DNA from: Pseudoruegeria sp. SK021
GTDB taxonomy: Bacteria; Pseudomonadota; Alphaproteobacteria; Rhodobacterales; Rhodobacteraceae
Length of the DNA: 43,564 nucleotides
Direction of reading: 5' to 3'
Assembly (NCBI RefSeq): GCF_002119405.1
Contig: NZ_MTBG01000030.1
Span: 1-43,564 of the forward strand
The translations under genes were made by a program, and so were the position numbers. Numbering within the stretch: position 1 is the first letter of the stretch; every line of letters starts with the position of its first letter. The notes beneath the pieces are model-generated. The model saw only the letters and a list, made by a program, of their open reading frames with translations. It ran no database searches and was not told the origin of the DNA. Shown one piece after another: positions 7,227 to 35,202 of this stretch.

Positions 7227-7230
7227 GACA

Positions 7231-10261: not shown

Positions 10262-13200
10262 GTGGCAACAGATCAAACACCGCCCGACCCGTCGTCGGAA
10301 ATCCAAATTCCAACGCGGGATGACCTGTTGCAGATGATCCAATTCGGGCTGGCGGGTGGTGATACTCCGGGTCTGACCGTTCTGATGGCACCTGACGATG
10401 CGCCCCTCGTGCTGGACGGTTCGGTGACTGCGGGTTCCGACGCTCTTGTTGACGGGGTGCTGACACTTGTTCTTAACGACGGTACGGTCATTGTCGTCAC
10501 CGATCTGGATGGCCGGGACTACGAGATTGAGCCTGTCCCATCAGACCCAACCCGCATTCAGATTCGGTTTGTCGAGCCCGAAAGTCCAGAGTCGCATATC
10601 GAACGCTTGGGCGAGCAGGGTTCAGGTTCAGAACATCCGATCCACGATCCTGACCCTCTTTTTGGGCTGTCGATCAATCCACTTCTGTCGCCAACCGAGT
10701 ACCCGTTTCTGCCAACCCGGGATTGGGAATGGAGCGGCACCACCGGGGTCGAGTCACGATTGGCAGTGGCTCAGATCCGGCCTGCGATTGCGCGGGAAAC
10801 CGATGGGGTGGTGACCATACAACTCTCCGATTTCGTAGAGCTTCAGGTTTACGAAGATGGCGGCGAGACAATCAAATCAGTCACGCTTCGAATCGAACAG
10901 TTGCCCGCGGGGACCACTGTCACCCAAGGGACCCTGACCGCAGCGTCAGATGGCACGCTGACGCTGACATTCACCGGCAGTCATGCGGCCTACAACGCGC
11001 TGCTAATCACGTTTCCCACCGATTTCTCGACGACAAGCCGGTCAGATATCGACAGCGGACCGCTAAGCGGAACAGTCACCGCAGTTTCGAGTTTCGGTGA
11101 CACCGCCAGCCATACGTTTAATATCCGCGTTCTGTTTGAGGCGGATATAGAACTGGACGGCCCCGGCACCATCGCCTTGACCGAAACCGATGACGATATC
11201 GATTTTCGACCCGTTGACGCACTCAATCCTCGCGCGACCGATATTGACGGATCCGAGGATATCACTACCGTCACACTGACACTGCCCGGACTGCCGACTG
11301 GCGCCCTGATCTCTTATGACGGTGGGACAAGCTTTGTCTCAATATCCGGGCAGTTCACGTTCGACGGAACACTCGCGGAATACGGCGAATTGGTCATCCG
11401 CCTGCCCGCTGACTTTTCCACGCAGAACCCGCCCACGTCACTTGTCGCTCACATAACCGCGCGGACCAACGAAGGCGGCTTTGTTTCGGGCGATATAAAC
11501 ATCTCGGTGGGCTATGAGCTTGACGTTGATCTGGCGGCGCCCGCGTTGGTTTCAGGGGCCGAGGATGGCAATGGCGGCGACGGGTCCGGGGTAACGGTGG
11601 ATCTGGGGATTGTGGTTGAGGCCACCGATCGCGACGGGTCTGAGGACAGCACCACGGTTCAGATCGTGTTCACCGACTTGCCATCCGGCGCGCTATTCTC
11701 GGGTGGCAGTTTCGACGCCGCCAGCGCCACATGGACTGGCAGCATGGTTGAGGCCAATGCGCTGCGCCTGTTTCTACCCGGCGACTATGCGGGCACCATT
11801 ACGTCTGTCATCACCGCCCTCAGTCCGGAAGGGCAGACCCAGACCCGCCAGACCATCGAGATCGCCGCCGCCAGTGATATCGACTTTAGCGTGACCGAAC
11901 TGGTCACCGCCGAGACCGACGCGGTGGTCATGGTGATCCCGTCCGAGGCTTGGCAGGTCTCGATCAGCGATTTCGATCCGAGCCAGCCGCCCGAGAGACT
12001 GGACAGCGTCACCCTCACCCTGAACGGCCTGCCCGCGGGCGTCACCGTCAGCGGCGTCCCGGTCGGCACCGTGACCTATGACGCGGCGGCGGGCGGGACT
12101 CTGGTCTTCACCGGCAGCGCGGCTGAATACCACGCCTTAAAGCTGGGCTTTCCTAAAGATTATTCGACCGAAAGCCCCAGTGCCGACGGGCTGACCATCG
12201 ACGGCACCCTCGCCGCCACCTCGACCGAAGACGCCACCGGCCAATCCACCGCGGTCACCTTGCGCATCACGCCAGAGGGCGACCTCGTCATCGACAGCAC
12301 CCTCCCCGATACCGTCGCCGATGAAACCGACGCCCCGACCCTCGTTATCCCCAACGATCTGCTGCGCCCTGCCGCCACCGACGCGGATGGCTCGGAAACG
12401 ATGACAGAGCTGACCTTGACGGTTGCCGGGCTTCCCGGCGGTTCGGATGCTGGGTCGCTGAACCTGAACTTGCCGGACGGTGCCACCGTCACCTTTGCCG
12501 CGCAAGCGGATGGATCAACTGTGATGACGATCCACCTGTCCACCCCACAGATTGCAGATGTCGCTACGGCCTATGCCGCGATCCGCTTTGAACTGCCCAC
12601 GGATTTCTCAACGACCAACCGGACCGACCTGACAACCGGGACCTCGCAGCCGCTGAAATTGACCGTGACGGCCAGCACCGACGAAGACCAAGATCTGTCA
12701 ACCGACACACCGGTGGACGGCCAACAGACGGCTTCTCGTGTGGTCGTGATTGATTCCGAAGCTGACGTGACGCTTTCGGCTCCGGCAACATTATCAGGAA
12801 CCGAAGACAGCCTCGCCGGGGATGGGTCTGGTGCTGTGGTGGTGCTTGGCATTGATGTTGCACCGAACGATATCGACGGGTCCGAAGACTCCACGACCGT
12901 TGAGATCATATATACGGACTTGCCCGGCGGCACGGTCTTTTCGGCAGGCAGCTATGACATGGCAACCGGAAGCTGGACCGGGAGCTGGCAGGACGCGAAC
13001 GGGCTCACGCTCACCTTGCCCGGCGACTATTCCGGAACAATACTTTCAACGATCCGGGCGATCAGCCCCGAAGGTACTGTTGAAACACAGCAGACGATCA
13101 CCATTGATCCCGCAGGGGACATAGACCTCGCAATCACGGAATTGACCGCTCAAGAGACCGACGCATCAGTTATCGTGACGCCATCGACCGCATGGCAAGT

Positions 13201-16200
13201 TTCGATCAGTGATTTCGATCCGAATCTGCCGCGCGAAGCCATCGATACCGTAACTTTGACGCTGAACGACTTGCCGCCCGGTGTCAGTGTCAGCGGGGTT
13301 CCCAGCGGCACCGTGACCTATGACGCGGCGGCTGGCGGCGGGTTCGAATTCAACGGCACCGGCACAGAGTATGCGGCGCTTCAACTGATCTTTCCTGCCG
13401 ACTTTTCGACGGAAAGCCCGCTGCTCACTGGCGGCGTCATCAGCGGTACCCTCTCTGCCACTTCCACAGAGGACCCGGTTGGGCAATCTGCCCCCGTCAG
13501 CCTGCGCATCACGCCAGAGGGCGACGTGACGATCGACGGTTCGCTGCCCGATCTCATTCCTGACGAAACAGATGCGATCACACCGGTTTTTCCCAGCACA
13601 CTTCTGGCACCGGCGTTGACCGACGCGGACGGATCGGAAAGCTTCACCAGCATTGTTCTCGTCGTTGAAGGCCTGCCGGTCGACACGATCTTCTTCACCA
13701 ATCCCGACGTGTCGCTCACCCAAGAACTGGCACCGGATGGAACCTATACGGCAACATTCACCGTGGACCCGTCTGCCGCTGACATGGTCGCTGCCTATAA
13801 CAGCATCAAATTCATTCTGCGCGAAGATTTTTCAACGGCGAACCGCTCTGATCTGAGCACGGGTGGCACAAACCTGCCCCTGACCTTCCGGCTAAGCGTG
13901 ACCACCGACGAAGATCAGGACTTGAGTGATGACACGCCCGTTGACGGGCAACAAACGATCGAACGTATCGTCGACATCGGGTTTGAGGAAGACATTGATC
14001 TGAGTGCCCCCGCGCAGATCACAGCGGACGAAGACGACGGGGTGGCGAACAGCACCCAAGGCGTAACCGTCGATCTGGAAATTGACATTACGATCGACGA
14101 CCACGACAATTCCGAGGTCGAGGACCCGACAAGCCCGTTTGGGGCAAACGTGCGAATTCTGTTCTCGGGCCTTCCCGCTGGCACGGTCGCGACCGAGGGC
14201 ACGCTTCTTGGTCCCTTCTGGTTTGGCAGCGTTGCAGAGGCGCGCGACCTCTCGCTTGATCTTCCCGGCGACTATAACGGCACCATCAACGCGTTGATCA
14301 CGGTGTCCACACGGGAAGGCACGGACGTGACCCCGCAGACCATCACCATCAACGCCACCCCGGATGTTGATGTCGATGGTCAGGTCGATACTCAGGAAAC
14401 AGATGCGCCACTGCCGGTGCGGTTGTCGGATTATGTCAGCATCCTCGATCCGGCGCCGGGTGAGACCATCATCGCGGGCACGCTGGTGGTGACAGGTTTG
14501 CCAGACGGCACGATGACCAACGGCGGTACACTTGCTGCAGATGGCAGCGGCACCTTCACCCTGACCTATGACTATCCCACCGATGTGACGTTGCCAGCCG
14601 ATCTGACCATCACATTTCCAACTGATTTCTCAACCGTGAACCCAGCGACCACTGTATCGGGCGCGTTGTCGCTGACGATCAACGATGGCGCGACAACCTA
14701 CACAGAAACCGCCACAATTCCGTTCAACATCGCGGTCGAAGGCGATATCAGCGTCAACGACAACGCAATCACGCTGACCGAAACCGACGCCGTTGTCACC
14801 TTCCGCCCTGTCGACAGCATCACGCCGCAGGCAACCGACGCAGACGGTTCAGAAAGCATCACCCAGATCGCGATCGCGATCCTACAGCCGCCCGCCGGAC
14901 TGCGGTACACCCTCGACGGGACGACCTATACCGACTTCCCAGCGAGCGGTTGGTTTTCGATCAGCCAAGCAGAGTATCAAAGCCTCGTTTTTGAAGTGCC
15001 GCAGGACTATTCCACCGAAAGTCCGGCGACGACACTTAAAATCTATGTGGTGGCAACGACTGACGAAAATGGCAGCAATGTCGGCACATTAACGGTGACG
15101 GTAGATGCTGAAGGCGACATTGTTCTGAATGGACCCGGCACACTCACGCTGACAGAAAACGACACGCCCGGCGATCAGGACGAGGATAGCACGACCACAG
15201 CACCGGTTATTTTCACTGTAAGCGATGCCATCGACGCGGTCGCAACGGATGCGGACGGATCGGAGGCTGTCGCCAGTATCGACGTCACCGTGAACGGTCT
15301 GCCGGATGGGGCGGTCTATTCCACCGATGGCTTTCAAACCATCACCGTGGTGACTGGTGGTACGTTCAGTCTTACTGCGATGTCGCCTAGAAACTACGAC
15401 GCATTACAGGTCCGGTTGCCTGACGATTATTCGACCACGTCCGACATTACCGGTACGGTGACCGCGCGCACCGATGAATCACTCCTCGCCGGGGAAACCG
15501 ACAGTTGGCCGAACGACGGTGTGGAAACGCGGGAATTCACGGTCACCGTCGCATCCGAAGCGGATGTCCGGATCGACGTCCAGAATATCACCGTGATCGA
15601 AGATCTGGGCACCACGATCCCATTGAACATTGCTGCCTCTGTCACGGATATCGACGGATCAGAGGCCATCACGGCCATAACCGTGACCTTCGACGGTCTG
15701 CCGACGAACGGGCCAACCACGCTGACCGATGGCACGCCATTGACCGGACCCACGGGCAGTTGGACCGGTACTGCCGCTGACCTCGCTGCCCTTGGCGTGA
15801 CCTCGTTCCCCGAACATTTCTCGGGGGTGATCGACATCACCGTGACTGTGGTGACCGATGAAGGCGTTTCGACGGGCACCAGCGACGCCTTTGTTCTGAA
15901 CGTGACCCCGGTGGCCGAGCCGACAATCGTTTTAACCGTAGATGACACCGAGACGGCCGTGAATACGCCGGCTGCTGGCAACTATGTCGTCAAGGAAGAC
16001 AACGGGTTCCTGTTGCAGATCGCGGCCGAGACCCCGGATCAAGACGGGTCGGAATCACTGACCACGATCACCATCGACAATCTCCCAGTGGGTTGGGTTG
16101 CAAGCACTGGTGGGGTCGTTGACCTGTCGCTGTTTGAAACCAGCGCGGCAGATATCGCGTCCGCGACCGTCGTCGGCACGACGCTGACCATTACCCTGCA

Positions 16201-19200
16201 GCCGGGGATCACCAGCTTTGACGGTGCCCTGCGGGTTACGCCCCTGCCCGATGATGACCGCGATGTCGCCACGCTGACCGGCAATGATCTGGTCGCGACG
16301 GTCACATCTGTTGATACCGCCGCGGGATTGGCCGATGACACCGCAACGGCCACGGATGGCGTTGATGTTGATGTCGACGCGGTGGTCGATGACGCGACGC
16401 AGACCGTGGCGGATGTCAGCGTTGATGAAAACATCTCTGGAGTTCTGGACCTCAATCTGGATCTGAATGGGCTTGGTCTGACAGACAACGATGGCTCGGA
16501 AGTCTTCGACGCGGTTGAACTTACCTTCACCATCGCCACGGCCAGCGACGCGTTCGACCCGGCGACCGATATGGTGTTGTCAGGCGACCCGGCGCTTGCA
16601 GGCTCTATCAATTCGTCTGTCATCGGGTCAACGGCCAAAAGCGTCACGTATCGGTTCGAACCGGCGGACGGCGCCTCCACGCAGCAATTCTCGGATGCGT
16701 TGGCTTCGATCCAGTTGGAATTCCCACAGCATTTCAGCGGTGTGGTGACCATCGACGGCACCGCCGATTGGCACGAGACCACAACACCCGCAACCTACCC
16801 CGGCGACGTGGAACAGGATGCCAGCGACAACACCAACAGTGACAACTTTAGCTTCATCAAAACCGTCAACCCGGTGGCCGAGGCGCAACTGACCGCCAGC
16901 GTCTTCGTTCTTGTGGATGAGGATGCGGCAGCAGACAGTCCGACCCGAGTGGATGCGACGGTAAAGGATGGGGCGGTTTCGGGCGCAGATATCCTGACAC
17001 TTTTGGAAAGCACGAGTGACGGGTCGAGCCCGGGTGGACAGGTAGACCTGTATCTTGGCATTCAGGGCGCAACGCCGGACACTGACGGCTCCGAAGAGTT
17101 ACGCACGATCACGGTTGAAAACGTGCCGACGGATTGGATCGCTCAATATGTCACCGGCGGCACGATAGATCAGGCTGCGTTTTTTACCGCCGATGGCACC
17201 GGCCCGCTGACCGCAAGCGAATACGCCAAGATCGACAGCGCCACCTATGACGACACGACCGGGCTGCTGACCCTGACCCTTGTGTCCGATGTCACCTCAT
17301 TCGGCGCCTCAATTCTGCTTCAGCCGACGCTGTATGAAGATTACGACATCGATCGGCTAGATGGCGATCCTTATACCGCAGCTGGCGATTTCTTTGGTCA
17401 GGATCTGAACATCACGATTGGTGTATCTGATGCCAATACGGCTACGACCGACGATCAACAGGCAAACGCCGTGCTCGACGTGGATGTCGATCCGGTCAAC
17501 AACTTCGCCGTGATCGATTCCTTGCCTCTGGGCAATGAACAAGTGATTGACGATGCAGGCGGCGTCTGGGCCGTTTCGCTCGATGTGTCGATCCCAGATG
17601 GCGACGGGTCAGAACAGATCACCGCAATCGTTCTGCGCAGCGTTCCGAACGCGGTCACAATCTTTGTATCGAATCCTGCGGACCCGACCGGTCCTAAAAT
17701 TCCGGCCCTGATTACAGAGTTGGACTCCCCGCCCGGGTTCAACACCTGGAGCCTGGAATCCAATGAATGGCTGGACATGGAGTTTCGCGGCATCCCGACC
17801 CACTGGGCGGGCCCGATCAGCCAGAACGTTCAGATCGTCACGACCGAAGACGACGGCACGACCCGCGTCACCACACTCGACACGCCCTTCTATATAGATC
17901 CGGTCGTTGACGGTGGCGACCCGTCTGAAACGGCAAGCACCCGCGAAGATACCGCCGTTCAGGTGGTGATCGACGGCAATATTATCGACAACACAACCAA
18001 TTCGCCGCTCTCGCCCGAAGCGATCCTGAACTATTTGGTTATCTATAACGTCGGCGACGATTCCGCAGGCCGCCAGCCGCGCTTTTTTGATGGCGATCCG
18101 GCTGACGGGGGGACCGAGATCTTCCTGTCTGGCGGGCGGCTTTTGCTGACCCCCAATCAGGCTGCAAACCTATGGGTATTGCCGGGGCAGGACACCAACG
18201 AGACGATGACCTTCGATGTGCAGGTCCAATATTACGAAACGATCGATCCGACTCAGACGCGGGTCGAAACCGGAACCATCACAGTCAACGTTCAGGGTGT
18301 CGCGGATACACCGGATCAGGTCGTCCAGAACGAGGACCCCTCGACCACAGCGGGCGGCATCACGCAGGCCGAGGTCGATGGCACCTATCGTCCCGATGAG
18401 GTTCAGGACGGTGCGGCAAACTACACTCGGCTCTATGGCTATGCCGGATATGACCAGATCCCGTTCGCGCTGAATATGCGGCTGACCGACGATGCCCTTG
18501 AAAACGGGTTCGACACCGCGCCCACCGTGTTCGAGGACGCAACGCCGCTGTCGGCATCGATGACGGAAATCATTGTCGCCCCGCCCGATGGCTATGACGG
18601 GTCGGAAACGATCTATCACATCATCACCGGGGTCGATCCCAGCACCAGCTTCATCGGCGGGCAATCCATAGACGCAAGCGGCGAAACCTACCTAGTCACC
18701 GATAGCAATCTCGCGAACTTGATGTTTGTGCCCTCCGGCGTCACCGAAGTCACCTATTACAACATGACGCTACACACGATCGTCCTTGAAGACGATCAGA
18801 TTGTGGACCTGCCACCCGGCAATTCGACGCTGTTGAACCTTGCCTATATCAACACCCTCCCCGGCGGATCGGTGGTCTCGGAAGACTTCAGTGTCGTCGT
18901 CCTGCCAGAAACCGACGTTGGCCCACCAACACCCTGCCCGCCCGAAATGCAGCTTCCCCTGCCAGAGTTGACGCTGTTGGGCAGTGGCGACGAAGACACC
19001 CAGATTTCCCTCAAGCTGCAGATCACAGCAGTGCCCGGGTACTATGACAGCATCGGAGATTTGGCCAACTTACCCAACGGGGTTCAGGGCAATTTCACAT
19101 TGCTCATTGATCTGCCGGAAGGCGCGTCGCTGTCCAGCGATCCATCCGGTGCGGTCCTTCTAGACCCAACGTCGGGCAACTATGTTGTGGACATCGCCAA

Positions 19201-22200
19201 GCTGGGTGTCGATCCCAACGACCCGACCCAGACCGAGGGCAGCATCCTTTATACGCCGCCACCGCAACAATCGAGTCCGGTAAACCCGTTCGACCCGTCC
19301 GAAACGCTTGGCCCCGACGATCCCTACGACGATCTGACGGAACTCACGTATCAAATGCGCCTGATCAACGCCTCATGCGAAACCGTGGACACCGGTGGCG
19401 GCAGCTTCAGCATTTTTATCAATCCCGTGGTGGACGGCCCCGGTATCGTTCTCGCTGGCGCGACGTCGTTTGACGAAGACACGCCCTATGATCTGGGCCT
19501 CTCGATCGAAGCCATAGACGGCGGCGAACGTCTGGTGGGTGATGTCGAGATCACGATTGGCGGCGACAATGGTGCGCAATTCTACACTTCCGGCGGCACG
19601 CTCTTGACCGGAACTGTCAATGCCGACGGCTCCACCACCTATGCCGTCGCGCCTGCGGACCTTACCGGTCTCTACGTCGTTCCGACCCAACATCTGAGTG
19701 GCAACATGACCATCAAGGTCAGTGCCACGTCCGAGGATGTCGACGGCTCCACTTTGACCAACACAGTCTCAAACACCGTCGAGGTGATCCCGGTTGCGGA
19801 TGTGCCATTCATCGACTTTGACGACACTGTGATCGATCCGGACACCGGCGCGCCTTATGTCGACACCAGCGGCAGCGCGCCTGTCATCACCATGGTCGAA
19901 GATCAGGCCTTCACCCTGGCAGATGTGATGGAAGTGGACACCCCGGATCAGGACGGATCGGAAACGATTTCAATCACGATTTTCGATATCCCGTCATACA
20001 TGGAGGTCTCTGGCCCGTCCGGTTCTGGGTTCATCGATAACGGCGATGGCAGCTACACCATTTCGCGGACGGCCTTTCAGCAGGTCACACTCAAGCTGAG
20101 CACTGAAAACGCCCGCACCCCCGACGCGCTGGACCCGACCTTGCCTGACAGCATCCCGCTTCGGATCACGGTAACGACATTGGAAACCGGAAATTCGGAT
20201 ACCCAAAGCACAACACAGGATTTTTCTGTCAAGGTGCGCCCGGATGCGGATGTAGCCGACCTGACCGCGTTTATCACGCCGACAACAGGAACCGAGGACC
20301 AGCCTCAAGCCTACACCTTGTCGTTGGAAGCGACGGTGTATGATCCCCATGAGACCGCCGATTTTCGCATCGACGTCCCGCCAAACGGAACGATCTATCT
20401 GGACGGTGTTGCCCTGATCCCCGATGCGAGCGGCGCCGTTACTGTCCCAGGCACACCGGGGCCCAGCACAGGGCTTACTACCAGTTTTCTGGCTGACGGC
20501 ACCGTGACCTTTGTACCCGATGCCGATTTTGCGGGGCAGGTTTCTTTGAACGTGGTGGCCGTCACCTCTGACGCGGCATTGGACAGCGCGTTTGTCGACA
20601 CCCAAGAGTCTGCAATTGAAACGTTGGACTTGGATATCGCGGTGGCGCCGGATCTGATCCTCACTGTGGACACGCCGCTTGTCGACTTGCAGGAAACCGA
20701 CGACGTGGTCACGCATGACCCTGCCGGGGATTTCACCATCGAAGTCACCGATGTGGACGGGTCAGAAACGGTCGACACGGTCACCTACACCATCAGCGGC
20801 GTCCCAGATGGCACCGCCTATTCGGTCGGTAGCGGCACGCCGATAGCCGTCAGCGGTGACCTCGTCTTCACCGGATCGCTGGCCGAATTCGACACATTGA
20901 CCGTGATCTTCCCCCGCGACTTTGCTACCGATGGCACGCCGTTGAGCGGCACAATCAACGTCACCACGAACGAAGGCGGCAACCAGAGCGGAAGTTTCAG
21001 CATTGAGATCGACGGTGAACTTGATCTGACCGTCACCAACACGACGCCCATCGACCTAGCGCAGGATGGCGCCCCCCTGACCGTGGATTTCGGAATCGTC
21101 GCCACTGTGACCGATCAACAGGCTGATCCGTCGGAATGGCTGGAAGACGTGGTAATCACCTTCGATACCCCGTTACCCAACGGCACCATCGCGTCAAATG
21201 GCACGTTTGACGCGAGCCGGCAGACCCTGACCTTCACGCGCGGCGGCATGGACATCGCCACGTTCACCGCTGCGGTGGCCGCTCTGTCCGTTACCCTGCC
21301 TGACAGCTTTTCTGGCGGGTTTAACGGCACGATCACAGTGTCCACAAACCACGGCACGGCGCCGGGGCAAGCCTACGTCGTCGATGTGAATGACCAGCCC
21401 CAGATCAGCGGGCCGGTCACCTACGCGTCGACCGAAACCACGTTTGAAATCGATTTCGCCACGCTTCTGGCGAATGCCAGCGATTCAGATACCCTGACGG
21501 TAGAAAATCCGGCAAGCGCCGATCCGGACGTTTCCGTGCTCTTGCTCGCAAATTCTGTGCAGGTGACTGTTCCCCAAGGGTTTATCGGAACCCCGGTTCT
21601 CACTTACGACGTGGTCGATGATGCAAGCATCCCGGCAAGTGCGCAGGCCACCGCCGATCTAGAGATCAATACGATGCAGATGGTCGATACCGGTCTGATC
21701 GTGAACGGCAATCCACTGCTGTCGGACGTCACTGGCGGCGCGGGCACAACCGATATCGCCTTTGCGACGGACGCCGCGGATTCTGTTGTCTTTGATGCTG
21801 CGGACCGGCCATATGCCGGGGTCGAAGGCTTCGCGCTTATGGGGGGCGACGATTTTGTCGACTTGTCCGGCAGTTCTGCGGGCTACGCCGTGGATGGCGG
21901 CGCGGGCAATGATGAAATCATCGGCAGTGCAGGCAATGACGTGCTAACGGGAGGTGACGGGACCGATACCCTGACCGGCGGGGCCGGGGACGACGTATTT
22001 GCCATGACCGATCTGCTGGCCGTCGATGTCATCACGGACTACCAAACACCCGGAGAGCCCGCGAATACAGATGAGATTGACCTGACCGCGCTGGTGCAAC
22101 TGGCCGCTGGCGAGGACGTCACCGATCATGTGACCTACGACAACACCACCGGCACGCTGAGCGTTGACAACACCCAAGTCGCCATTGTGAACACCGATAC

Positions 22201-22270
22201 CGGGTTTGCCGATCAGGTGCAGGTGATTTTTGAAGACGCCGCGAACACCCAGCAAAGCGCCGTCATCTAA
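10262..22270 (+). CDS. Giant RTX-type repetitive adhesin secreted by type I system
   Basis: A single uninterrupted frame of 4002 residues with a GTG start and AGGAG 8 bases upstream. There is no signal peptide. The N-terminal ~150 residues form a distinct region, followed by some 30 beta-sandwich modules of about 100 residues. Many carry a D-x-DGSE-x(3)-T motif (at least 15 seen), then LPxG and DFST-like strands. The product is Asp/Thr-rich and very Lys-poor; I saw only two cysteines, both within about 160 residues of each other in the module region encoded near 18.9-19.4 kb. The C-terminus has RTX nonapeptides (about residues 3879-3920) and a VFAMTDLLAVDVITDY-like type I secretion target. 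It is probably a surface or biofilm adhesin exported by the convergent T1SS genes next door. No LapG-type dialanine processing site was recognised at the N-terminus. Confidence 0.93.
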   Translation: MATDQTPPDPSSEIQIPTRDDLLQMIQFGLAGGDTPGLTVLMAPDDAPLVLDGSVTAGSDALVDGVLTLVLNDGTVIVVTDLDGRDYEIEPVPSDPTRIQIRFVEPESPESHIERLGEQGSGSEHPIHDPDPLFGLSINPLLSPTEYPFLPTRDWEWSGTTGVESRLAVAQIRPAIARETDGVVTIQLSDFVELQVYEDGGETIKSVTLRIEQLPAGTTVTQGTLTAASDGTLTLTFTGSHAAYNALLITFPTDFSTTSRSDIDSGPLSGTVTAVSSFGDTASHTFNIRVLFEADIELDGPGTIALTETDDDIDFRPVDALNPRATDIDGSEDITTVTLTLPGLPTGALISYDGGTSFVSISGQFTFDGTLAEYGELVIRLPADFSTQNPPTSLVAHITARTNEGGFVSGDINISVGYELDVDLAAPALVSGAEDGNGGDGSGVTVDLGIVVEATDRDGSEDSTTVQIVFTDLPSGALFSGGSFDAASATWTGSMVEANALRLFLPGDYAGTITSVITALSPEGQTQTRQTIEIAAASDIDFSVTELVTAETDAVVMVIPSEAWQVSISDFDPSQPPERLDSVTLTLNGLPAGVTVSGVPVGTVTYDAAAGGTLVFTGSAAEYHALKLGFPKDYSTESPSADGLTIDGTLAATSTEDATGQSTAVTLRITPEGDLVIDSTLPDTVADETDAPTLVIPNDLLRPAATDADGSETMTELTLTVAGLPGGSDAGSLNLNLPDGATVTFAAQADGSTVMTIHLSTPQIADVATAYAAIRFELPTDFSTTNRTDLTTGTSQPLKLTVTASTDEDQDLSTDTPVDGQQTASRVVVIDSEADVTLSAPATLSGTEDSLAGDGSGAVVVLGIDVAPNDIDGSEDSTTVEIIYTDLPGGTVFSAGSYDMATGSWTGSWQDANGLTLTLPGDYSGTILSTIRAISPEGTVETQQTITIDPAGDIDLAITELTAQETDASVIVTPSTAWQVSISDFDPNLPREAIDTVTLTLNDLPPGVSVSGVPSGTVTYDAAAGGGFEFNGTGTEYAALQLIFPADFSTESPLLTGGVISGTLSATSTEDPVGQSAPVSLRITPEGDVTIDGSLPDLIPDETDAITPVFPSTLLAPALTDADGSESFTSIVLVVEGLPVDTIFFTNPDVSLTQELAPDGTYTATFTVDPSAADMVAAYNSIKFILREDFSTANRSDLSTGGTNLPLTFRLSVTTDEDQDLSDDTPVDGQQTIERIVDIGFEEDIDLSAPAQITADEDDGVANSTQGVTVDLEIDITIDDHDNSEVEDPTSPFGANVRILFSGLPAGTVATEGTLLGPFWFGSVAEARDLSLDLPGDYNGTINALITVSTREGTDVTPQTITINATPDVDVDGQVDTQETDAPLPVRLSDYVSILDPAPGETIIAGTLVVTGLPDGTMTNGGTLAADGSGTFTLTYDYPTDVTLPADLTITFPTDFSTVNPATTVSGALSLTINDGATTYTETATIPFNIAVEGDISVNDNAITLTETDAVVTFRPVDSITPQATDADGSESITQIAIAILQPPAGLRYTLDGTTYTDFPASGWFSISQAEYQSLVFEVPQDYSTESPATTLKIYVVATTDENGSNVGTLTVTVDAEGDIVLNGPGTLTLTENDTPGDQDEDSTTTAPVIFTVSDAIDAVATDADGSEAVASIDVTVNGLPDGAVYSTDGFQTITVVTGGTFSLTAMSPRNYDALQVRLPDDYSTTSDITGTVTARTDESLLAGETDSWPNDGVETREFTVTVASEADVRIDVQNITVIEDLGTTIPLNIAASVTDIDGSEAITAITVTFDGLPTNGPTTLTDGTPLTGPTGSWTGTAADLAALGVTSFPEHFSGVIDITVTVVTDEGVSTGTSDAFVLNVTPVAEPTIVLTVDDTETAVNTPAAGNYVVKEDNGFLLQIAAETPDQDGSESLTTITIDNLPVGWVASTGGVVDLSLFETSAADIASATVVGTTLTITLQPGITSFDGALRVTPLPDDDRDVATLTGNDLVATVTSVDTAAGLADDTATATDGVDVDVDAVVDDATQTVADVSVDENISGVLDLNLDLNGLGLTDNDGSEVFDAVELTFTIATASDAFDPATDMVLSGDPALAGSINSSVIGSTAKSVTYRFEPADGASTQQFSDALASIQLEFPQHFSGVVTIDGTADWHETTTPATYPGDVEQDASDNTNSDNFSFIKTVNPVAEAQLTASVFVLVDEDAAADSPTRVDATVKDGAVSGADILTLLESTSDGSSPGGQVDLYLGIQGATPDTDGSEELRTITVENVPTDWIAQYVTGGTIDQAAFFTADGTGPLTASEYAKIDSATYDDTTGLLTLTLVSDVTSFGASILLQPTLYEDYDIDRLDGDPYTAAGDFFGQDLNITIGVSDANTATTDDQQANAVLDVDVDPVNNFAVIDSLPLGNEQVIDDAGGVWAVSLDVSIPDGDGSEQITAIVLRSVPNAVTIFVSNPADPTGPKIPALITELDSPPGFNTWSLESNEWLDMEFRGIPTHWAGPISQNVQIVTTEDDGTTRVTTLDTPFYIDPVVDGGDPSETASTREDTAVQVVIDGNIIDNTTNSPLSPEAILNYLVIYNVGDDSAGRQPRFFDGDPADGGTEIFLSGGRLLLTPNQAANLWVLPGQDTNETMTFDVQVQYYETIDPTQTRVETGTITVNVQGVADTPDQVVQNEDPSTTAGGITQAEVDGTYRPDEVQDGAANYTRLYGYAGYDQIPFALNMRLTDDALENGFDTAPTVFEDATPLSASMTEIIVAPPDGYDGSETIYHIITGVDPSTSFIGGQSIDASGETYLVTDSNLANLMFVPSGVTEVTYYNMTLHTIVLEDDQIVDLPPGNSTLLNLAYINTLPGGSVVSEDFSVVVLPETDVGPPTPCPPEMQLPLPELTLLGSGDEDTQISLKLQITAVPGYYDSIGDLANLPNGVQGNFTLLIDLPEGASLSSDPSGAVLLDPTSGNYVVDIAKLGVDPNDPTQTEGSILYTPPPQQSSPVNPFDPSETLGPDDPYDDLTELTYQMRLINASCETVDTGGGSFSIFINPVVDGPGIVLAGATSFDEDTPYDLGLSIEAIDGGERLVGDVEITIGGDNGAQFYTSGGTLLTGTVNADGSTTYAVAPADLTGLYVVPTQHLSGNMTIKVSATSEDVDGSTLTNTVSNTVEVIPVADVPFIDFDDTVIDPDTGAPYVDTSGSAPVITMVEDQAFTLADVMEVDTPDQDGSETISITIFDIPSYMEVSGPSGSGFIDNGDGSYTISRTAFQQVTLKLSTENARTPDALDPTLPDSIPLRITVTTLETGNSDTQSTTQDFSVKVRPDADVADLTAFITPTTGTEDQPQAYTLSLEATVYDPHETADFRIDVPPNGTIYLDGVALIPDASGAVTVPGTPGPSTGLTTSFLADGTVTFVPDADFAGQVSLNVVAVTSDAALDSAFVDTQESAIETLDLDIAVAPDLILTVDTPLVDLQETDDVVTHDPAGDFTIEVTDVDGSETVDTVTYTISGVPDGTAYSVGSGTPIAVSGDLVFTGSLAEFDTLTVIFPRDFATDGTPLSGTINVTTNEGGNQSGSFSIEIDGELDLTVTNTTPIDLAQDGAPLTVDFGIVATVTDQQADPSEWLEDVVITFDTPLPNGTIASNGTFDASRQTLTFTRGGMDIATFTAAVAALSVTLPDSFSGGFNGTITVSTNHGTAPGQAYVVDVNDQPQISGPVTYASTETTFEIDFATLLANASDSDTLTVENPASADPDVSVLLLANSVQVTVPQGFIGTPVLTYDVVDDASIPASAQATADLEINTMQMVDTGLIVNGNPLLSDVTGGAGTTDIAFATDAADSVVFDAADRPYAGVEGFALMGGDDFVDLSGSSAGYAVDGGAGNDEIIGSAGNDVLTGGDGTDTLTGGAGDDVFAMTDLLAVDVITDYQTPGEPANTDEIDLTALVQLAAGEDVTDHVTYDNTTGTLSVDNTQVAIVNTDTGFADQVQVIFEDAANTQQSAVI
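11522..12763 (+). repeat. Adhesin super-repeat, copy 1 (414 residues)
   Basis: Residues 421-834 form a multi-module unit starting DVDLAAPALVSGAEDG and including DRDGSEDSTTVQI, WQVSISDFDP and LRITPEGD. The same order of modules recurs in the next 409 residues. Parts are close at DNA level: a 26-base tract beginning ggcaccgtgacctatgacgc is shared between the copies. Parts of this copy (about 11.9-12.3 kb) use almost only G/C-ending codons, unlike copy 2. Confidence 0.85.
12764..13990 (+). repeat. Adhesin super-repeat, copy 2 (409 residues)
   Basis: Residues 835-1243 repeat copy 1 in order: DVTLSAPATLSGTEDS, DIDGSEDSTTVEI, WQVSISDFDP, GTVTYDAAAGG, LRITPEGD and then a DADGSES module. A partial third copy begins at 13991 (DIDLSAPAQITADEDD) and keeps only the first module, with DNSE in place of DGSE and a short insertion. 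This is direct evidence of growth by tandem duplication of a three- to four-module block. Confidence 0.85.
21897..22010 (+). repeat. RTX calcium-binding repeats of the adhesin
   Basis: The encoded stretch AGNDEIIGSAGNDVLTGG and the following DGTDTLTGGAGDDVF is a short block of glycine- and aspartate-rich GGxGxDxUx nonapeptides. These form calcium-filled beta rolls after secretion. They precede the uncleaved C-terminal secretion signal. Confidence 0.9.
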
Positions 22271-27411: not shown

Positions 27412-28110
27412 ATGTCCATCGCAAATATTCTCCGCGCACTTGCCGTCCTATGTCTTCTGTCCGGCTTTTCGGTGCCCGCAGCGGCGCAAACGATCGGGAC
27501 CGTCAATTTCGCCTTCGACTCCGCCGAACTTGATGACACTGCTAGGGCGGAAATCGCGAAGATTGCGGACAAATTGAAAACGATCGATAGCTACAAGCCG
27601 ACCGTGGTGGTCGGCTATACCGACGCTGTAGGAAATTCCGGCTACAACCTCGGGCTCGGCCAGCGGCGCGCAAACGCGGTGGCGACTGCGCTGACGGCAC
27701 AGGGCGTGCCTGTCGACCGTGTCGGACTTGTTGAAAGTCGGGGCGAGACTGACCTGCTGGTGACTGTCTCCACTCCTGAGCGCCGCAACCGCAGGGTCAA
27801 TGTCACGCTCGAACAGATGATGACCGCCTGCAACAGTTACCGGACCGTTCCCCTTTCGCAAAGTTCGATCGGAAATGAATTGCAGGATGATCTGCAAACC
27901 CGTCTGATTAATGCGACGACGTATTTTCAGCAATTTCAGTCCGATGGCTTGAACACACCCGCCTTTCAGGTCGCAGGCGCCACCCGCGAGGCCTGCGAGA
28001 TAGCGGTCGCCTATGACATGGGCGCCTTTCGTAAACTGGAATACGCGCAGCGCTGCTTTTGCAACGCCGCTCGCCTTGATGTCGCTCTAGGAAAGATCCC
28101 ACCCGCGTGA
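27412..28110 (+). CDS. Periplasmic OmpA-like protein with four-cysteine C-terminal tail
   Basis: A 232-residue exported protein: signal peptide ending VPAAAQ (about residue 26), then an OmpA-like peptidoglycan-binding domain with NFAFDSAELDDTARAEI, GYTDAVGNSGYNLGLGQRRA and the RRNRRVNV end. Residues about 140-232 form a separate tail with cysteines in MMTACNSY, REACEIAV and QRCFCNAA. Two disulfides are possible. I do not recognise this tail. The gene is divergent from the T1SS operon, so it may anchor the secretion machinery or adhesin to peptidoglycan (inference). Confidence 0.82.
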   Translation: MSIANILRALAVLCLLSGFSVPAAAQTIGTVNFAFDSAELDDTARAEIAKIADKLKTIDSYKPTVVVGYTDAVGNSGYNLGLGQRRANAVATALTAQGVPVDRVGLVESRGETDLLVTVSTPERRNRRVNVTLEQMMTACNSYRTVPLSQSSIGNELQDDLQTRLINATTYFQQFQSDGLNTPAFQVAGATREACEIAVAYDMGAFRKLEYAQRCFCNAARLDVALGKIPPA

Positions 28111-28822: not shown

Positions 28823-31800
28823 TCAGAATTCGATGTCCATTTCCAGCGGCACCTCAGGCGTGTGCAACGCGGCCTCCGCACGGCGCAAGGCGTCGAAATC
28901 GACCATCATCACACTGAAGCCAGAGGTCCCGCCCCATTGCTCGGCGCGTTCCTCCATATAGGTCAGAACCACGCCGCAGGCGGTGGTGTATTCCAGCATA
29001 TCCGGCGGATAATGGGGCAGCCCCAACGCCCACGCGCCGCGACTGGCGCGCAATTCTGTCCAGTCCGGCGTGCCGATGCCCTCCAGACGTGTCCAGCCAC
29101 GCAAGCCCTGCCCGGAATAAGGGATCGCGCCGCAGACCTCTGACCCCGGCCCGGTAGCGCCGCCCAGCCAGGCCGACAGGCCATGCATCCCGATCTCGGA
29201 GCCATTGGTATCCGGAGCGCCGTATTTCTGATCCAGCGCTTCAGCGATCTGGTCGTAGGGCAGCGTGCCCTCTTGCAAGACCATGCGGCGCATCAGCGCC
29301 ACCACTGGCCCGTCCGGCGCATAAGAGCCGAGGCTGATCGCCTCGTTGCCATCGCGGGTGATGTAGACGCGCCGGTATGCCATCGCAGGCGAGCCTGTGT
29401 CATCGGCCACATCCGGCGGGGTCTCAAAGGCTGCCACCACGCCACCGCGCTGCAGAAGAATGCGGGCGGCCTCTTCCATGCTCTGGCCCGTGCGCAGACC
29501 AAGTACGTCGATTTCGGCCGGTCCTATTTCAAACTCGGCAATCTCTGGCCAGGTTAATTCTTCGGCCTCCGCCGCCTTTGGTGCCCGCGGCGCGGATGGG
29601 ATCGATGCCGTCTGCGCGACGGGGTCCGGCTGCGGATCTGCCGCTGGCTCGGGGTCCGCCTTTTCTATAGGCAAGGCAGCCATGATCGCCTCTCCAGCGG
29701 TGCCGTCTGCGCTCAGCAACCGGGTGGTTTCGGCCTTGCCCCGCAGCAAGACGTCAGGCAGCGGGTGGGAACCGGCGAATTGGCTGACCTCCTCCAGTGT
29801 GAATTCGACACGTGCGACCGGTGCGCTTCCAGCGGATTGACCCTCATGCACAGCCCCTTCCAGCACCACCATTCCGTACCAAAGCTCGCAATTGGAATAG
29901 CGCGCGCTTAGCCGTTGCTGGATAAGCGCATATCGGCGTGGCAGGTCGAAGGCGCCCCCGGTGTCGCGCAACAGACGGCCCAAATCATTGGCATCCTCGC
30001 GCAGTTGCGGCAGGGCTTGAAACAAGTTCCGGTCCCCGCCGTAGATCGCGCCAGCCTCCATCGCCTCCCCACACACCTGCTGGTTGCGCCCGCGATGGAT
30101 GTCCACCGCAAACTGATCGCCAAGCGCCTGCGCCTTGGCCTGCATGTAGCTGGCAAAGGACGGCCGCATCAGCTCCGCCTCCGGGCCTTGTGGTCGGTCA
30201 GTGTCAGCTTCGAAAAAACGAGGACCGGGCAACGGCCCTGCGCTGCGCTCGTTTTGCCACGCTGACAACATCATCTCATCACCTGCCTCCCCCTCCGGCA
30301 CCTGACCAAAGCTGCGCACCAGAAGCAGATCGAACACATGCGGATCCAGCAATGGGCGCGCCTCGCCAAGGGCCGAGAATTTAGAGGGTTCATAGCGGGC
30401 GGCCAGACGGTCAGCGTGGGCGGCATTGTTGTCCTCATAGGACATCGTCGCCAGTACAGTGTTCGGTTTGCCATAATCGTCGGCGTGCCAGAACAGCACT
30501 TCCTCGGGTTGCAGGATCAGCTCGAATCTGGGCTGCTCGTCCGCCTGTCTAGGGTGGCTCTCGTCGGTGACACCCTTGGGCGTGGCCCGCATCAGGAACC
30601 CGATCTGACGTTTTCCAGGATCGGCGGATTCGACAATTGCGCGGGACAGATCCGGCGCGACCGGCAGGCTTTGGAACGGGTTTTCCCCGATCAGCGTCGG
30701 CGTGATACTGGTGCGGCCGGTGTCGCCTCGCAGATTGAACCGCACATAGCCCCCCCCTTGCCTAAAGCCAAAGGTCCCGGCGTTCAGGTCATATTCGGTA
30801 AGTGATGCCGTGCCCTCAATCCACACCGCCCCCTCGGGTTGCTCCTTCAGGCTGGCCACAGTGTCCCGCACTGCGCCGGGGCGGTCGAACTCGTTGGCCT
30901 GTTGGACCGCGGTCTGGGTGCGGGCCAGCCGTTCCCAGACCGCGTCGTCGCCGCCAAGATTACGGGCCACCGCGGCCAGCAGACGCGGCCCGCTAACGCG
31001 TTCGGCCTGGGCAATTCTGGCCAATGCGCTGGAGGTGGTTGAGTCCGGCCCAATGATCTCGGGGTTCGGGATCAGCACCGCCTTGGGGTCGATTTCCATC
31101 AGCGGCTGGCTCAGCCCCGGATCGAGGAACAGAGCCACCCGTTTCAGCGTCGCGCGGCCCGGACGCGGCTCGTTAACCCGCAGCGGATACCGCGGCGAGA
31201 ACAGGTTCTCGATCTCGGTTGCGTCACTGCTCCAGTCTAGGTCCGACCACCACGCCAGCGTGATCTGCGAGTCGCCATACGGATTGGCGGCCCGCAATGC
31301 ATCGCGCAGTCGCCGCGCCTGATCCGACGGCATCGGCAGGCTGGTGGGAAGATTGCCGAACCGGTCCACGGAATAGAGCCCCTGTCGGCTCCGTTCTGCC
31401 ACTTGCGGCTGCTGGGTCGACGCCACCCGGAAACTGACGTTCTCCAGATTTTGGATCGGAAAGGCGCCCGCGTCGAAATCATATTCGCTCAGGCGCAACT
31501 GGACCTTGTGCAACATCGGCAGTGGCCATTGCGGGGCCCGGGCGAGTATGCCGTCATAATAGTTGGCCAAGAACGCCCGCTTTGCGTCTTCTCGCAGAAA
31601 TTCGTCACGAAAGGCGTTAACGGCAATACCCGCCAGATTCTGTGGGCGCTCAGGGTCATAGAGCGCAGCCAGATCAGAGGGACCGCCCGGCTGTTGTTCT
31701 CCGAAAAAGGCACGCTTTTGCATGTCCGGTAGCAACGATGATGCCACGGCGGCAAAGTTGTCGCCTTCGCGCGCCACGTCGGGATTGGCCCCTATCCAGG

Positions 31801-33889
31801 CCAGATTGCCAAAGGTTGCCCATCCGGCCTGGCTGTCGTGGGTCTGACTGGCCGCCAGCACATGGCCATCCTGGATCGGCAGCCCCAGTTCGCGCGCCAC
31901 CACCAGTGCCTCACGCCCGCCAGCAACCGGCACCGGGGCAGTATCCAGCGGCCACTCATAAAGCACCGGTGTTTGCGCCCCAACCACTCCGGGCCCGTCG
32001 CTCTGATCGAGATAATGCAATGTCACCCGCATCGGCACAAAGGTCGTCGGACGGTGTCCCCCATACATGCCCGCACTGCCAGAGACGTTGGTGTTCGCGA
32101 ATTCGGCAATGGACTCGTCAATTCCCAGCCGTGTCACCCTGCCCCAGACGACCTGCGTCAGTCGTTTGCGATCGGCCGTCATCGCCTCGTGTTGGTTCAG
32201 AAAGGTGCTCGCTTCGTCGCGGCTCATCGGCAGCATGTCGGTGCCGGGCAGCACACCGCTGACCACAAAACCGCGGCCATAGCCCCGCGCTGACGGGATC
32301 GCTTCGGCGAAGTCCGGCGTCGGTCGCAAGCGGATGCCCTGTCCGTCCACGTATTCAAGCCGACCATACCTATTGGCGCCAATCGCGCCTAAGTAGACGG
32401 CCAAGGGTAAAGGCTGCTCCGCAGAGGGCATCGGTACGCGCTGCGCTTCTTCCAGCAAACGCTGGCGCTGCGCGGCAATGGCGTCCTGCAATTCCAGCGG
32501 GTTCAGCTGGGACAGGTTGCGGTTGACGATGTTAATCGTTTCGCCCGTCTGCAGGGCGCGGTCAGCGGTCAGCGACTGCCGCACCATGGTGTCGTCCGAC
32601 AGGATCTCGGGATCGAGCTTGAGTTCGGCCAGCATCAGCTGGCGCGGCATGTCGTCTGGTGCCACGAGAAAACGGTTGTTCGCCATGTGCATCCAGTCGC
32701 CGCGACCAATCTCCGGAAAGTCGACTGCTGCCCCCCCCGGCCCTGCGGCACCCGCATCAGCACCCGGTAGGCTGACCCCGTTTGCGCCAAAGCTCGCGAC
32801 GGCAAAGCCACCCGACGATCCGGCATCGGTCCCGTTGCCAAACCCGCTGCCGTCACCCGGTCCCGCGGCAGCAAAGCCGCCCCCGCCTCCCGTGAAGTCA
32901 CCCGCCGGCACCGGTGCCATTCCAGTCAGCTCGGTGATCCGCCGCGTCATCTGCGCATCGATGCAGCCGGCATCGGCACCACAGGCATTGCGTTGCGCCA
33001 TCCAGGCCTGATGACGCGGCAGCAAGGCAGCAGTTCCCCCGGCCCCAGCGGTCGCCACCGACCACGCTTGGGCGAGTTGTAGGTCCAACGACGCCAGCCG
33101 GGTGTTGCCGCAGATCGCCCATTCGGTTGCCGTGCCCGCCTTGTTGCAGTCAAAGCTTGGCCCGGCCTGCAACGCTCCGCTTGGGGCCATCGCCTGCGCG
33201 GTCTGAACCCGCGCCATGCCCGACCGCGCATTCGGCGGCACGCCATGCACCCGCGTATAGAGCGCCGCCTCATCGCTAGGGGCCAGCGGGGTGTTATACG
33301 CCGAGAGCCCCGCATCACGCCGGAACGCGTCCAGAGCTGCCTGCGATTGTGGCCCCCAGGCCCCATCCGGGTTCCCGGGATTATAGCCCAGCTCTTGCAG
33401 ATAGGCTTGCGCTTCGTACACCTCGGTCCGGCGCAGTTCTGCCGTCTCCACGCCACCGCTGGCATTGGCGCGCATATCGGTACTCATCGCCAGTCGTTGC
33501 ATTGGCGTCAGGTTGCCCGTCGGGGAAAACCCGCGACTGACCTGATAGGCTTGGATCGCCGCTCGCGTCCGTGCCCCCGGCATCCCGTCCACCGGCCCCG
33601 CGTCGAAGCCAAGCGTGTTGAGCGTGCTCTGCAACTCCATCGCCGCCTGTCGCGCCGGATCCACCCGTGGCGCTTGCCTTTGGGGTTGGCCCTGGCCCTG
33701 CGGCCGAACCTGCTGTTGCTGCTGCTGTTGTGGCTTGTTTATCTGGTTCAGGATCACCGCCGCCCCCAGCCCCAACAATTGCTGTTCGAGGCTGCTCTGT
33801 GCAGTGGCGCGCTGCGGGGCCGTCGGCAGCCAGCTGATGCTTAAGACAAAACCAAGAAGGATTGCGCGGGAACCGGGCGAAATTGCCAT
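28823..33889 (-). CDS. Exported 1688-residue protein: two PG-binding domains, LprI-like domain, large unknown region
   Basis: Signal peptide (1-31), a Gln-rich linker (54-72), two peptidoglycan_binding_1-type domains (about 84-131, LQSTLNTLGFDAGPVDGMPG; about 157-196, AQAYLQELGYNPGNPDGAWG) and an LprI/DUF1311-like domain (about 245-322; Cys248, 260, 303, 309; DCNKAGTATEWAICGN). A Gly-rich linker follows (about 334-395), then some 1300 residues I cannot assign, with a C-terminal part containing LGLRTGQSMEEAARILLQ that resembles small outer-membrane assembly folds only loosely. The start at 33889 has GGAG six to nine bases upstream. Probably periplasmic and cell-wall associated; the N-terminal domains support that, the function is unknown. 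It stands alone between IS6-family relics. Confidence 0.85.
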   Translation of the reverse strand: MAISPGSRAILLGFVLSISWLPTAPQRATAQSSLEQQLLGLGAAVILNQINKPQQQQQQQVRPQGQGQPQRQAPRVDPARQAAMELQSTLNTLGFDAGPVDGMPGARTRAAIQAYQVSRGFSPTGNLTPMQRLAMSTDMRANASGGVETAELRRTEVYEAQAYLQELGYNPGNPDGAWGPQSQAALDAFRRDAGLSAYNTPLAPSDEAALYTRVHGVPPNARSGMARVQTAQAMAPSGALQAGPSFDCNKAGTATEWAICGNTRLASLDLQLAQAWSVATAGAGGTAALLPRHQAWMAQRNACGADAGCIDAQMTRRITELTGMAPVPAGDFTGGGGGFAAAGPGDGSGFGNGTDAGSSGGFAVASFGANGVSLPGADAGAAGPGGAAVDFPEIGRGDWMHMANNRFLVAPDDMPRQLMLAELKLDPEILSDDTMVRQSLTADRALQTGETINIVNRNLSQLNPLELQDAIAAQRQRLLEEAQRVPMPSAEQPLPLAVYLGAIGANRYGRLEYVDGQGIRLRPTPDFAEAIPSARGYGRGFVVSGVLPGTDMLPMSRDEASTFLNQHEAMTADRKRLTQVVWGRVTRLGIDESIAEFANTNVSGSAGMYGGHRPTTFVPMRVTLHYLDQSDGPGVVGAQTPVLYEWPLDTAPVPVAGGREALVVARELGLPIQDGHVLAASQTHDSQAGWATFGNLAWIGANPDVAREGDNFAAVASSLLPDMQKRAFFGEQQPGGPSDLAALYDPERPQNLAGIAVNAFRDEFLREDAKRAFLANYYDGILARAPQWPLPMLHKVQLRLSEYDFDAGAFPIQNLENVSFRVASTQQPQVAERSRQGLYSVDRFGNLPTSLPMPSDQARRLRDALRAANPYGDSQITLAWWSDLDWSSDATEIENLFSPRYPLRVNEPRPGRATLKRVALFLDPGLSQPLMEIDPKAVLIPNPEIIGPDSTTSSALARIAQAERVSGPRLLAAVARNLGGDDAVWERLARTQTAVQQANEFDRPGAVRDTVASLKEQPEGAVWIEGTASLTEYDLNAGTFGFRQGGGYVRFNLRGDTGRTSITPTLIGENPFQSLPVAPDLSRAIVESADPGKRQIGFLMRATPKGVTDESHPRQADEQPRFELILQPEEVLFWHADDYGKPNTVLATMSYEDNNAAHADRLAARYEPSKFSALGEARPLLDPHVFDLLLVRSFGQVPEGEAGDEMMLSAWQNERSAGPLPGPRFFEADTDRPQGPEAELMRPSFASYMQAKAQALGDQFAVDIHRGRNQQVCGEAMEAGAIYGGDRNLFQALPQLREDANDLGRLLRDTGGAFDLPRRYALIQQRLSARYSNCELWYGMVVLEGAVHEGQSAGSAPVARVEFTLEEVSQFAGSHPLPDVLLRGKAETTRLLSADGTAGEAIMAALPIEKADPEPAADPQPDPVAQTASIPSAPRAPKAAEAEELTWPEIAEFEIGPAEIDVLGLRTGQSMEEAARILLQRGGVVAAFETPPDVADDTGSPAMAYRRVYITRDGNEAISLGSYAPDGPVVALMRRMVLQEGTLPYDQIAEALDQKYGAPDTNGSEIGMHGLSAWLGGATGPGSEVCGAIPYSGQGLRGWTRLEGIGTPDWTELRASRGAWALGLPHYPPDMLEYTTACGVVLTYMEERAEQWGGTSGFSVMMVDFDALRRAEAALHTPEVPLEMDIEF

Positions 33890-34686: not shown

Positions 34687-35202
34687 ATGATGCGACTTTC
34701 GAAAATGTTTGCGGCTCTTGTCGCTTTGACGATCACTGGGTCGATGCCGCTTTCGGCGGCAGATTTTGCGCGAGCCGAGGTGCGCGATACAGACGGAAAT
34801 ATCGTCGGTGGAGTCACTGCCGAAACCACGCCGTCTGGCACAGTGTTGCTGACCGTTTCGTTGACCGAGTTGCCGCCCGGCATACACGGTGCGCATATCC
34901 ATGAGACCGGCGACTGCTCGGCTTCGGATTTCAGCTCGGCCGGAGGTCACGTTGCGGGTGACGCACAGCATGGCGTCGATAGCGCGGAAGGCCCGCACCC
35001 AGGGGACATGCCCAATATTACCATATTAGAGGCAGGCGCCACGCAAGTGGAGATTTTTTCAGATCAGCTCGATATTGACAGAGATATTCTGGATGATGAC
35101 GGATCAGCGTTCGTGTTGCACGCCGGCGTGGATGACTACACGTCTCAACCTTCTGGCGCGTCGGGCGACCGCATAGCGTGTGGTGAATTTTCGGCGGAAT
35201 GA
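34687..35202 (+). CDS. sodC: Periplasmic Cu-Zn superoxide dismutase
   Basis: A 171-residue Cu-Zn SOD that dismutes superoxide in the periplasm. Signal peptide about 1-25 (ends PLSAA). Metal ligands are in place: His70 and His72 (GAHIHETG), bridging His88 (SAGGHVAG), His95 (DAQHG), His104 and Asp107 (GPHPGDMPN), His145 (VLHAG). Cys77 and Cys165 (GDRIACG) form the usual disulfide; the arginine of GDRIACG is the conserved active-site one. AAGGAG precedes the ATG-ATG start. An EcfG-like promoter lies upstream, which fits stress control. Confidence 0.95.
   Translation: MMRLSKMFAALVALTITGSMPLSAADFARAEVRDTDGNIVGGVTAETTPSGTVLLTVSLTELPPGIHGAHIHETGDCSASDFSSAGGHVAGDAQHGVDSAEGPHPGDMPNITILEAGATQVEIFSDQLDIDRDILDDDGSAFVLHAGVDDYTSQPSGASGDRIACGEFSAE

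Follow-up and report, generated by a model that had tools for sequence, protein, structure and literature searches.

A handful of described systems bear on the large exported protein that is the subject of this report. ScwA of Salmonella is a periplasmic LprI-domain protein reported to affect peptidoglycan enzymes (PMC7933661). In the NlpI-Prc-MepS system, the adaptor NlpI delivers MepS, a peptidoglycan endopeptidase, to Prc, a protease whose PDZ domain recognises C-termini (PMC5686067). The YARHG domain is proposed to bind peptidoglycan (PMC3355149). To these may be added the Pfam family DUF4852 (PF16144), which is named in no paper of the literature searched, a set with few subscription journals, and the Paracoccus seriniphilus protein WP_089345588.1, which is encoded on plasmid NZ_CP067131.1 and annotated only as a 'peptidoglycan-binding protein'.

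The protein considered here, hereafter the giant, is encoded by a single unbroken ORF with an ATG start at 28823..33889 on the minus strand of the window, by which is meant the whole 43,564-nucleotide stretch of Pseudoruegeria sp. SK021 DNA that was analysed. It is 1688 aa long, and the ORF has one match in its own 3.97-Mb genome. A predicted signal peptide covers residues ~1-31 (33797..33889, minus strand), its cleavage site being inferred by eye; the most hydrophobic 19-residue windows begin at residues 1-10, and no comparable stretch is found elsewhere in the protein. Cut after residue 31, the mature protein has a computed mass of ~178 kDa and a pI of 4.8. Of its eight cysteines, four (248, 260, 303 and 309) lie in the LprI segment described below; the other four are divided between two regions (1273 and 1334; 1586 and 1638), a distribution that fits an oxidising compartment.

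The gene is encoded singly, with a convergent OmpA-type gene (27412..28110, plus strand) on one side and a divergent SodC gene (34687..35202, plus strand) on the other. The gene has a G+C content of 0.63-0.65; the DNA on its right has 0.55-0.60 and that on its left 0.56-0.63. To the left lie, besides the OmpA-type gene, a 4002-aa RTX-repeat ORF and HlyD/ABC/OEP secretion genes, and further left genes of MoxR-type AAA, DUF58, VWA and BatD-like proteins. The 4002-aa ORF (10262-22270), of whose length Pfam covers little, has its RTX repeats near the C-terminus and is adjoined by the HlyD/ABC/OEP type I secretion set. A preliminary description of this DNA had presented the gene as encoding an exported 1688-residue protein, alone and in a mobile-like context. 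The uninterrupted frame, the signal-peptide-like start and the orientation of the two neighbours bear out the first two statements; the third is not borne out, a Pfam scan of 25 other ORFs in the window having revealed no transposase or integrase.

Behind the signal peptide lie two peptidoglycan-binding domains, at residues 84-131 (33497..33640, minus strand) and 159-197 (33299..33415, minus strand; bounds from a local profile, which puts the first domain at 85-125). Pfam PG_binding_1 (PF01471) matches the protein in two stretches with 74.3 bits (E 8.5e-21), well past the cut-off of 23 bits, so that this element of the preliminary description is firm. They are followed by an LprI/DUF1311-like domain at residues 244-323 (32921..33160, minus strand; bounds likewise from a local profile) which contains Cys 248, 260, 303 and 309. 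LprI/DUF1311 domains carry four cysteines within an all-helical fold. The Pfam LprI model (PF07007) gives the window protein 11.0 bits (E 0.59), under the cut-off of 22 bits, whereas the same segment in relatives scores 28.5 bits (L048) and 29.1 bits (L051), above the cut-off, and 21.3 bits (L046), just under it; five of 14 further relatives have a Pfam LprI match at E <=0.01. BLAST aligns the window segment with 44% identity to L046 and 46% to L051 (E ~1e-15 to 1e-16), and a structure model of the segment has four helices with pLDDT block means of 60-87. On sequence and model the segment is thus best classed as LprI-like, though it is missed here by Pfam alone. For the LprI claim made earlier, the cysteines, the relatives and the BLAST matches speak in its favour and the sub-cut-off score of the window protein itself against it; the fold of residues 245-322, as checked by a modest model, appears all-helical, as expected for LprI. 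Judging by the domains, the preferred reading remains that of a protein bound to the cell wall. No YARHG match was found in the window protein with Pfam. Next comes a Gly/Ala-rich linker, residues ~330-390 (32720..32902, minus strand), recognised from its sequence and with pLDDT ~22-24.

The body beyond the linker is modular. Module m2 spans residues 401-599 (32093..32689, minus strand; delimited by a profile built from the segment itself) and occurs in duplicate in L050. Module m1, residues 761-932 (31094..31609, minus strand), is supported by an alignment set, A3, and is DUF4852-like (Pfam E 0.0043, sub-cut-off). A third piece, m3, at residues 999-1077 (30659..30895, minus strand) is probably a partial m1-like module, detected by hhalign and by an iterated profile with E 2.6e-4, a score which its own inclusion may help. 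Region m4, residues 1175-1425 (29615..30367, minus strand), holds Cys 1273 and 1334 and is aligned in L049 and L050. Compared by hhalign, m2 and m1 are related with a probability of 96.7% (E 3.7e-10); the kinship of m1 and m3 is less sure (62%, E 7e-5), and no link of m4 to the other modules was found. The local profiles used here (PG-binding, LprI, C-terminal domain, m1 and m2) all started from the window protein itself or from a near relative; they therefore give bounds rather than proof, and their E-values arise partly by construction.

The Pfam DUF4852 model scores 15.2 bits on the whole window protein (E 0.023) and 17.6 bits on m1 alone, short of its cut-off of 22.8, and matches three of the 10 members of set A3 at E <=1 and one of 14 further relatives at E <=0.01. 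In the other direction, the m1 profile, built without Pfam-DUF4852 proteins, recovers all three of those examined out of eight found (L154, L155 and L156, 5e-6 to 6e-4), and the G688 locus is matched by both models. This reciprocal kinship, read from sequence, relates m1 to DUF4852. The view that the body matches nothing is accordingly superseded, since it belongs to a family of large exported alphaproteobacterial proteins and includes a DUF4852-like module. Compared with large families of assigned function the body gave no match, the kinship found being with DUF4852, which has no assigned function. AlphaFold2 models (3-4 rows) had a mean pLDDT of 53 in both halves of the protein, and much of what they show is not reliable enough for a fold comparison. 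Searched against the PDB, both low-confidence models matched ADP-ribosyltransferases first; with best E-values of 0.05 and 0.0019, TM <=0.22 and rmsd >12 A, these are put down to chance. PDB profile searches found nothing for the C-terminal domain and, for m1, two matches at E 0.53 only, which were not used.

The relatives are patchily distributed. Of the 394 genomes of the family, 10, its own included, gave a match to the body (residues 380-1688). This figure is a minimum, since scoring was limited to two candidates in each genome; the whole protein also matches in G110 and G125, which the body query missed. An alignment-based scan of contigs found two relatives, in Primorskyibacter sedentarius (L056) and Phycocomes zhengii (L057), whose proteins are the same as those of L049 and L050, respectively. 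Among 72,556 plasmid records there is one with a relative, that of Paracoccus seriniphilus (L058). The m1 profile matches in seven of 240 genomes of the class, again including its own; five others have ORFs of 927-1553 aa, three of them listed with two modules, and G688 contributes the Pfam-DUF4852 protein. The C-terminal domain occurs in one of the 17 genomes of the family of G589, and this second family, used as a test of the tail and M15 rules set out below, yielded no new case beyond the one already known. Heads differ among the relatives, which may carry PG-binding, LprI, YARHG or 'RNSSG' segments. These proteins apparently constitute an undescribed patchy family of large exported alphaproteobacterial proteins with DUF4852-related modules and a two-cysteine C-terminal domain; none of the papers listed by a literature search with few subscription journals describes them, their tail or the pairing of the giant with an M15 gene.

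Several loci of relatives have features of their own. The relatives in L045 (8246-13095) and L051 (3452-7358) are split over at least two frames, either by assembly error or because the gene has decayed. In L048 two large ORFs of 961 and 929 aa (4891-7776 and 8360-11149) lie upstream of the giant on the same strand, the former with a signal-like start and no Pfam match. In Primorskyibacter sedentarius (L049, 5623-12880) the M15-giant pair lies between two direct copies of an IS6/IS240-type element, a layout like that of a compound transposon; the repeats, with 300-nt blocks 95-99% identical and 6.64 kb apart, contain transposase ORFs of the IS240/IS6 type, of which one is shortened. For the window gene itself a phage or mobile origin was considered and set aside, neither the 25 window ORFs scanned nor a pattern scan of IMG/VR lending it support.

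The window protein bears both marks of the giant family: a C-terminal domain with two cysteines (residues 1455-1666, Cys 1586 and 1638; 28892..29527, minus strand; sets A4 and A8) and the tail D-I-E-F-COOH (28826..28837, minus strand), which fits the pattern [ILVMFP]-[DEK]-[FL]. A profile of the domain matches in 20 of 292 genomes of the order, its own genome included. The pattern ends 24 of the 25 family proteins that have the domain and a readable C-terminus, the exception (EIEV) being the terminal fragment of the L045 gene, which is split across frames. By comparison, it ends two of 292 other ORFs of >=200 aa from the same loci, not all of which are genes; L090, one of the two, likewise contains the C-terminal domain. 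It is absent from six proteins that do not have the domain (L052, L054 and L153-L156). As the pattern was written down after the first tails had been seen, the fair tests are L149-L152 (4/4) and seven later proteins (7/7). The latter come from the remaining 10 loci with the domain, where an intact ORF lies over the match in nine and the tail fits in all nine; L071 and L072 repeat L091 and L092, which leaves seven additional cases, and L077 has a stop inside the match and hence no intact ORF. In these seven proteins the matched profile range stops before the tail, so that the tail is independent of the profile match. The stretch that precedes the tail is variable, often rich in Ala, Pro and Glu.

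Small proteins of 221-313 aa carrying the C-terminal domain with the same tail are also found (L070, L073, L074, L075, L080, L091 and L092), and may show what the domain does at its core when the long arm is absent. From its sequence, the tail looks like a docking signal. It resembles the PDZ class II ligand pattern, and a PDZ-type reader would be our guess; PDZ-domain proteins are present in the window's own genome, but likewise in all 14 control genomes.

In eight of 26 loci (L049, L051, L055, L058, L082, L084, L087 and L152) a gene for an M15 carboxypeptidase-type enzyme lies directly upstream of the giant. The ORFs are 280-322 aa long (Pfam Peptidase_M15_4 E 6.8e-19 in L058), and all eight keep the motifs SxHSxGxAxDxN and DGMHFE, which presumably form the M15 metal site. 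Between the M15 and giant ORFs there is an overlap of 4 bases in three loci (L049, L082 and L152) and of 1 base in L058; a 22-base gap separates them in L087, and in L051, L055 and L084 the spacing depends on the start chosen. The presence of the gene goes with the head type of the giant, as it is found in all seven loci with an RNSSG head and in L055, the only giant with a Pfam YARHG match (0/14 others), and in none of the 18 others; in L050, L150 and L089 the upstream contig sequence is too short to tell. Genome-wide, strong M15 matches occur in six of 20 genomes, which are the six whose giant head is seen as RNSSG or YARHG, while G341 (head cut by the contig end), G251 and G530 have weak matches only (5e-7 to 5e-6). 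In the wider set of 292 genomes, 11 have a strong M15 match, four with a giant adjoining and seven without one in the stretch examined, which speaks against an exclusive link. Neither the window nor, in a genome-wide search, the rest of its genome has an M15 homologue of this kind, so that the giant here lacks the partner found in other loci.

Enzymes of this type also have other neighbours. In L123 (6403-8579), one of the seven cases without a giant, an M15 of the same subfamily adjoins a protein in which Pfam recognises caspase (C14) and YARHG domains, and in L124 (3894-6103) and L125 (3825-6037) its neighbour is a protein of 461 aa that has a YARHG segment resembling this one. The YARHG proteins of all three loci end in Gly-Cys.

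The domains, the kinship of the modules, the tail and the M15 coupling in sister loci are matters of computation, and the reading of them that we favour, with a probability of a little over one in three, is that the giant is a periplasmic, peptidoglycan-anchored adaptor or scaffold whose tail docks a partner and which controls peptidoglycan-cleaving enzymes. Once exported, the giant would, to judge from its domains, be held on the sacculus by its two PG-binding domains together with the LprI-like head, and the DUF4852-like modules would form a long arm. A partner would be docked by the C-terminal domain with its two cysteines and by the tail, a step suggested by the tail motif; the simplest candidate would be a PDZ domain belonging to a periplasmic protease or chaperone of the CTP/Deg type. 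In this way the giant would control enzymes that cleave peptidoglycan, much as NlpI-Prc controls MepS in E. coli and ScwA affects enzyme levels in Salmonella; this last step is drawn from those two precedents and from the M15 neighbour of the relatives. In the sister loci the co-encoded M15 carboxypeptidase-type enzyme probably acts with the giant through the special N-terminal head, and the window version, which has neither, would act on other hydrolases. Against this stand the lack of an M15 gene in 18 of the 26 loci and of such a homologue in the window's genome, the seven of 11 genomes with a strong M15 match but no giant in the stretch examined, and the poor structure models, which gave no usable fold match.

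An alternative would be a passive tether, akin to OmpA or Pal, in which the tail links peptidoglycan to another envelope structure and no enzyme is regulated. A protein with PG-binding domains at one end, a long modular arm and a conserved tail at the other has the build for this, and the window gene, single and without an enzyme partner, is in keeping with it. The M15 coupling in eight of 26 loci, however, points to enzyme control, and the small proteins with C-terminal domain and tail exist without a giant arm; on balance a mere tether seems unlikely.

The scattered distribution, with the body matched in 10 of the 394 family genomes and the C-terminal domain in one of 17 from another family, could alternatively mark an accessory defence trait carried on mobile cassettes, the giant, with or without the M15 enzyme, altering or shielding peptidoglycan against phage lysins or the wall-cutting enzymes of rivals. 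The Primorskyibacter pair flanked by direct IS copies and the relative on a Paracoccus plasmid agree with this, as does the caspase-YARHG protein next to an M15 of the same subfamily in L123, whose caspase part matches the PADLOC caspase model (E 6.5e-14). Yet no PADLOC model matched the window giant, the L049 giant, the L055 giant or the L049 M15, the 25 other window ORFs scanned include no phage or integrase gene, and the IMG/VR pattern scan returned no relative. A defence role is rather improbable.

The LprI-like segment with its four cysteines might suggest an inhibitor or sensor of lysozyme, blocking lysozyme-type enzymes at the wall, and the LprI lipoprotein of M. tuberculosis is said, in the ScwA account, to confer lysozyme resistance (PMC7933661). 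The same text has ScwA, itself an LprI-domain protein, leaving lysozyme sensitivity unaffected (PMC7933661); with the sub-cut-off LprI score of the window protein, and a local profile search finding no LprI segment in L047, L052-L055, L084, L086 and L149-L153, we consider this role very doubtful. Just as implausible would be body modules that form a wall-acting enzyme of unknown type: conserved residues are numerous along the body and no fold match excludes an enzyme, but Pfam and NCBIfam detect no catalytic family in the giants and the kinship between modules fits binding better.

The adaptor reading may be extended to a wider class. In this proposal, which in our judgement falls just short of an even bet, alphaproteobacterial exported proteins that combine the two-cysteine C-terminal domain with [ILVMFP]-[DEK]-[FL]-COOH as a docking signal would share a common envelope partner; the giants would be modular adaptors anchored to the wall, their heads interchangeable, and one type of head would always be paired with an M15 peptidoglycan peptidase and would at least sometimes move as a cassette. 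If this is correct, the Alphaproteobacteria would possess a control of wall remodelling of new build, and a short, testable C-terminal signal would predict that many exported proteins now without annotation have a partner in common. There would also be a first lead on the role of DUF4852-like modules, and the action of LprI domains, whether as inhibitors or adaptors, would become a question open to experiment in marine strains that are not pathogens.

Set beside the described systems, the giant belongs with the multidomain, peptidoglycan-binding exported proteins. It is like ScwA in its predicted periplasmic setting, its LprI-type domain, two putative disulfides and the proposed control of peptidoglycan hydrolases, but the available part of the ScwA account makes no mention of PG-binding domains, repeats or a tail (PMC7933661). 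With NlpI-Prc-MepS it would share the proposed working logic, which is a functional hypothesis rather than membership (PMC5686067). NlpI differs in being a TPR lipoprotein. Module m1 ties the giant to Pfam DUF4852, although the three DUF4852 proteins examined are of only 261-329 aa, the window score is below the cut-off and the family has no assigned function. Proteins with YARHG are related in a looser manner, through the YARHG head in L055 and the caspase protein adjoining an M15 of the same subfamily, the window protein differing in having no YARHG match. Finally, WP_089345588.1 of Paracoccus seriniphilus is a member of the same family, with PG-binding and LprI-like domains, the C-terminal domain and the tail KIDF; unlike the window protein, it has an RNSSG head, an M15 gene directly upstream and a length of 1273 aa.
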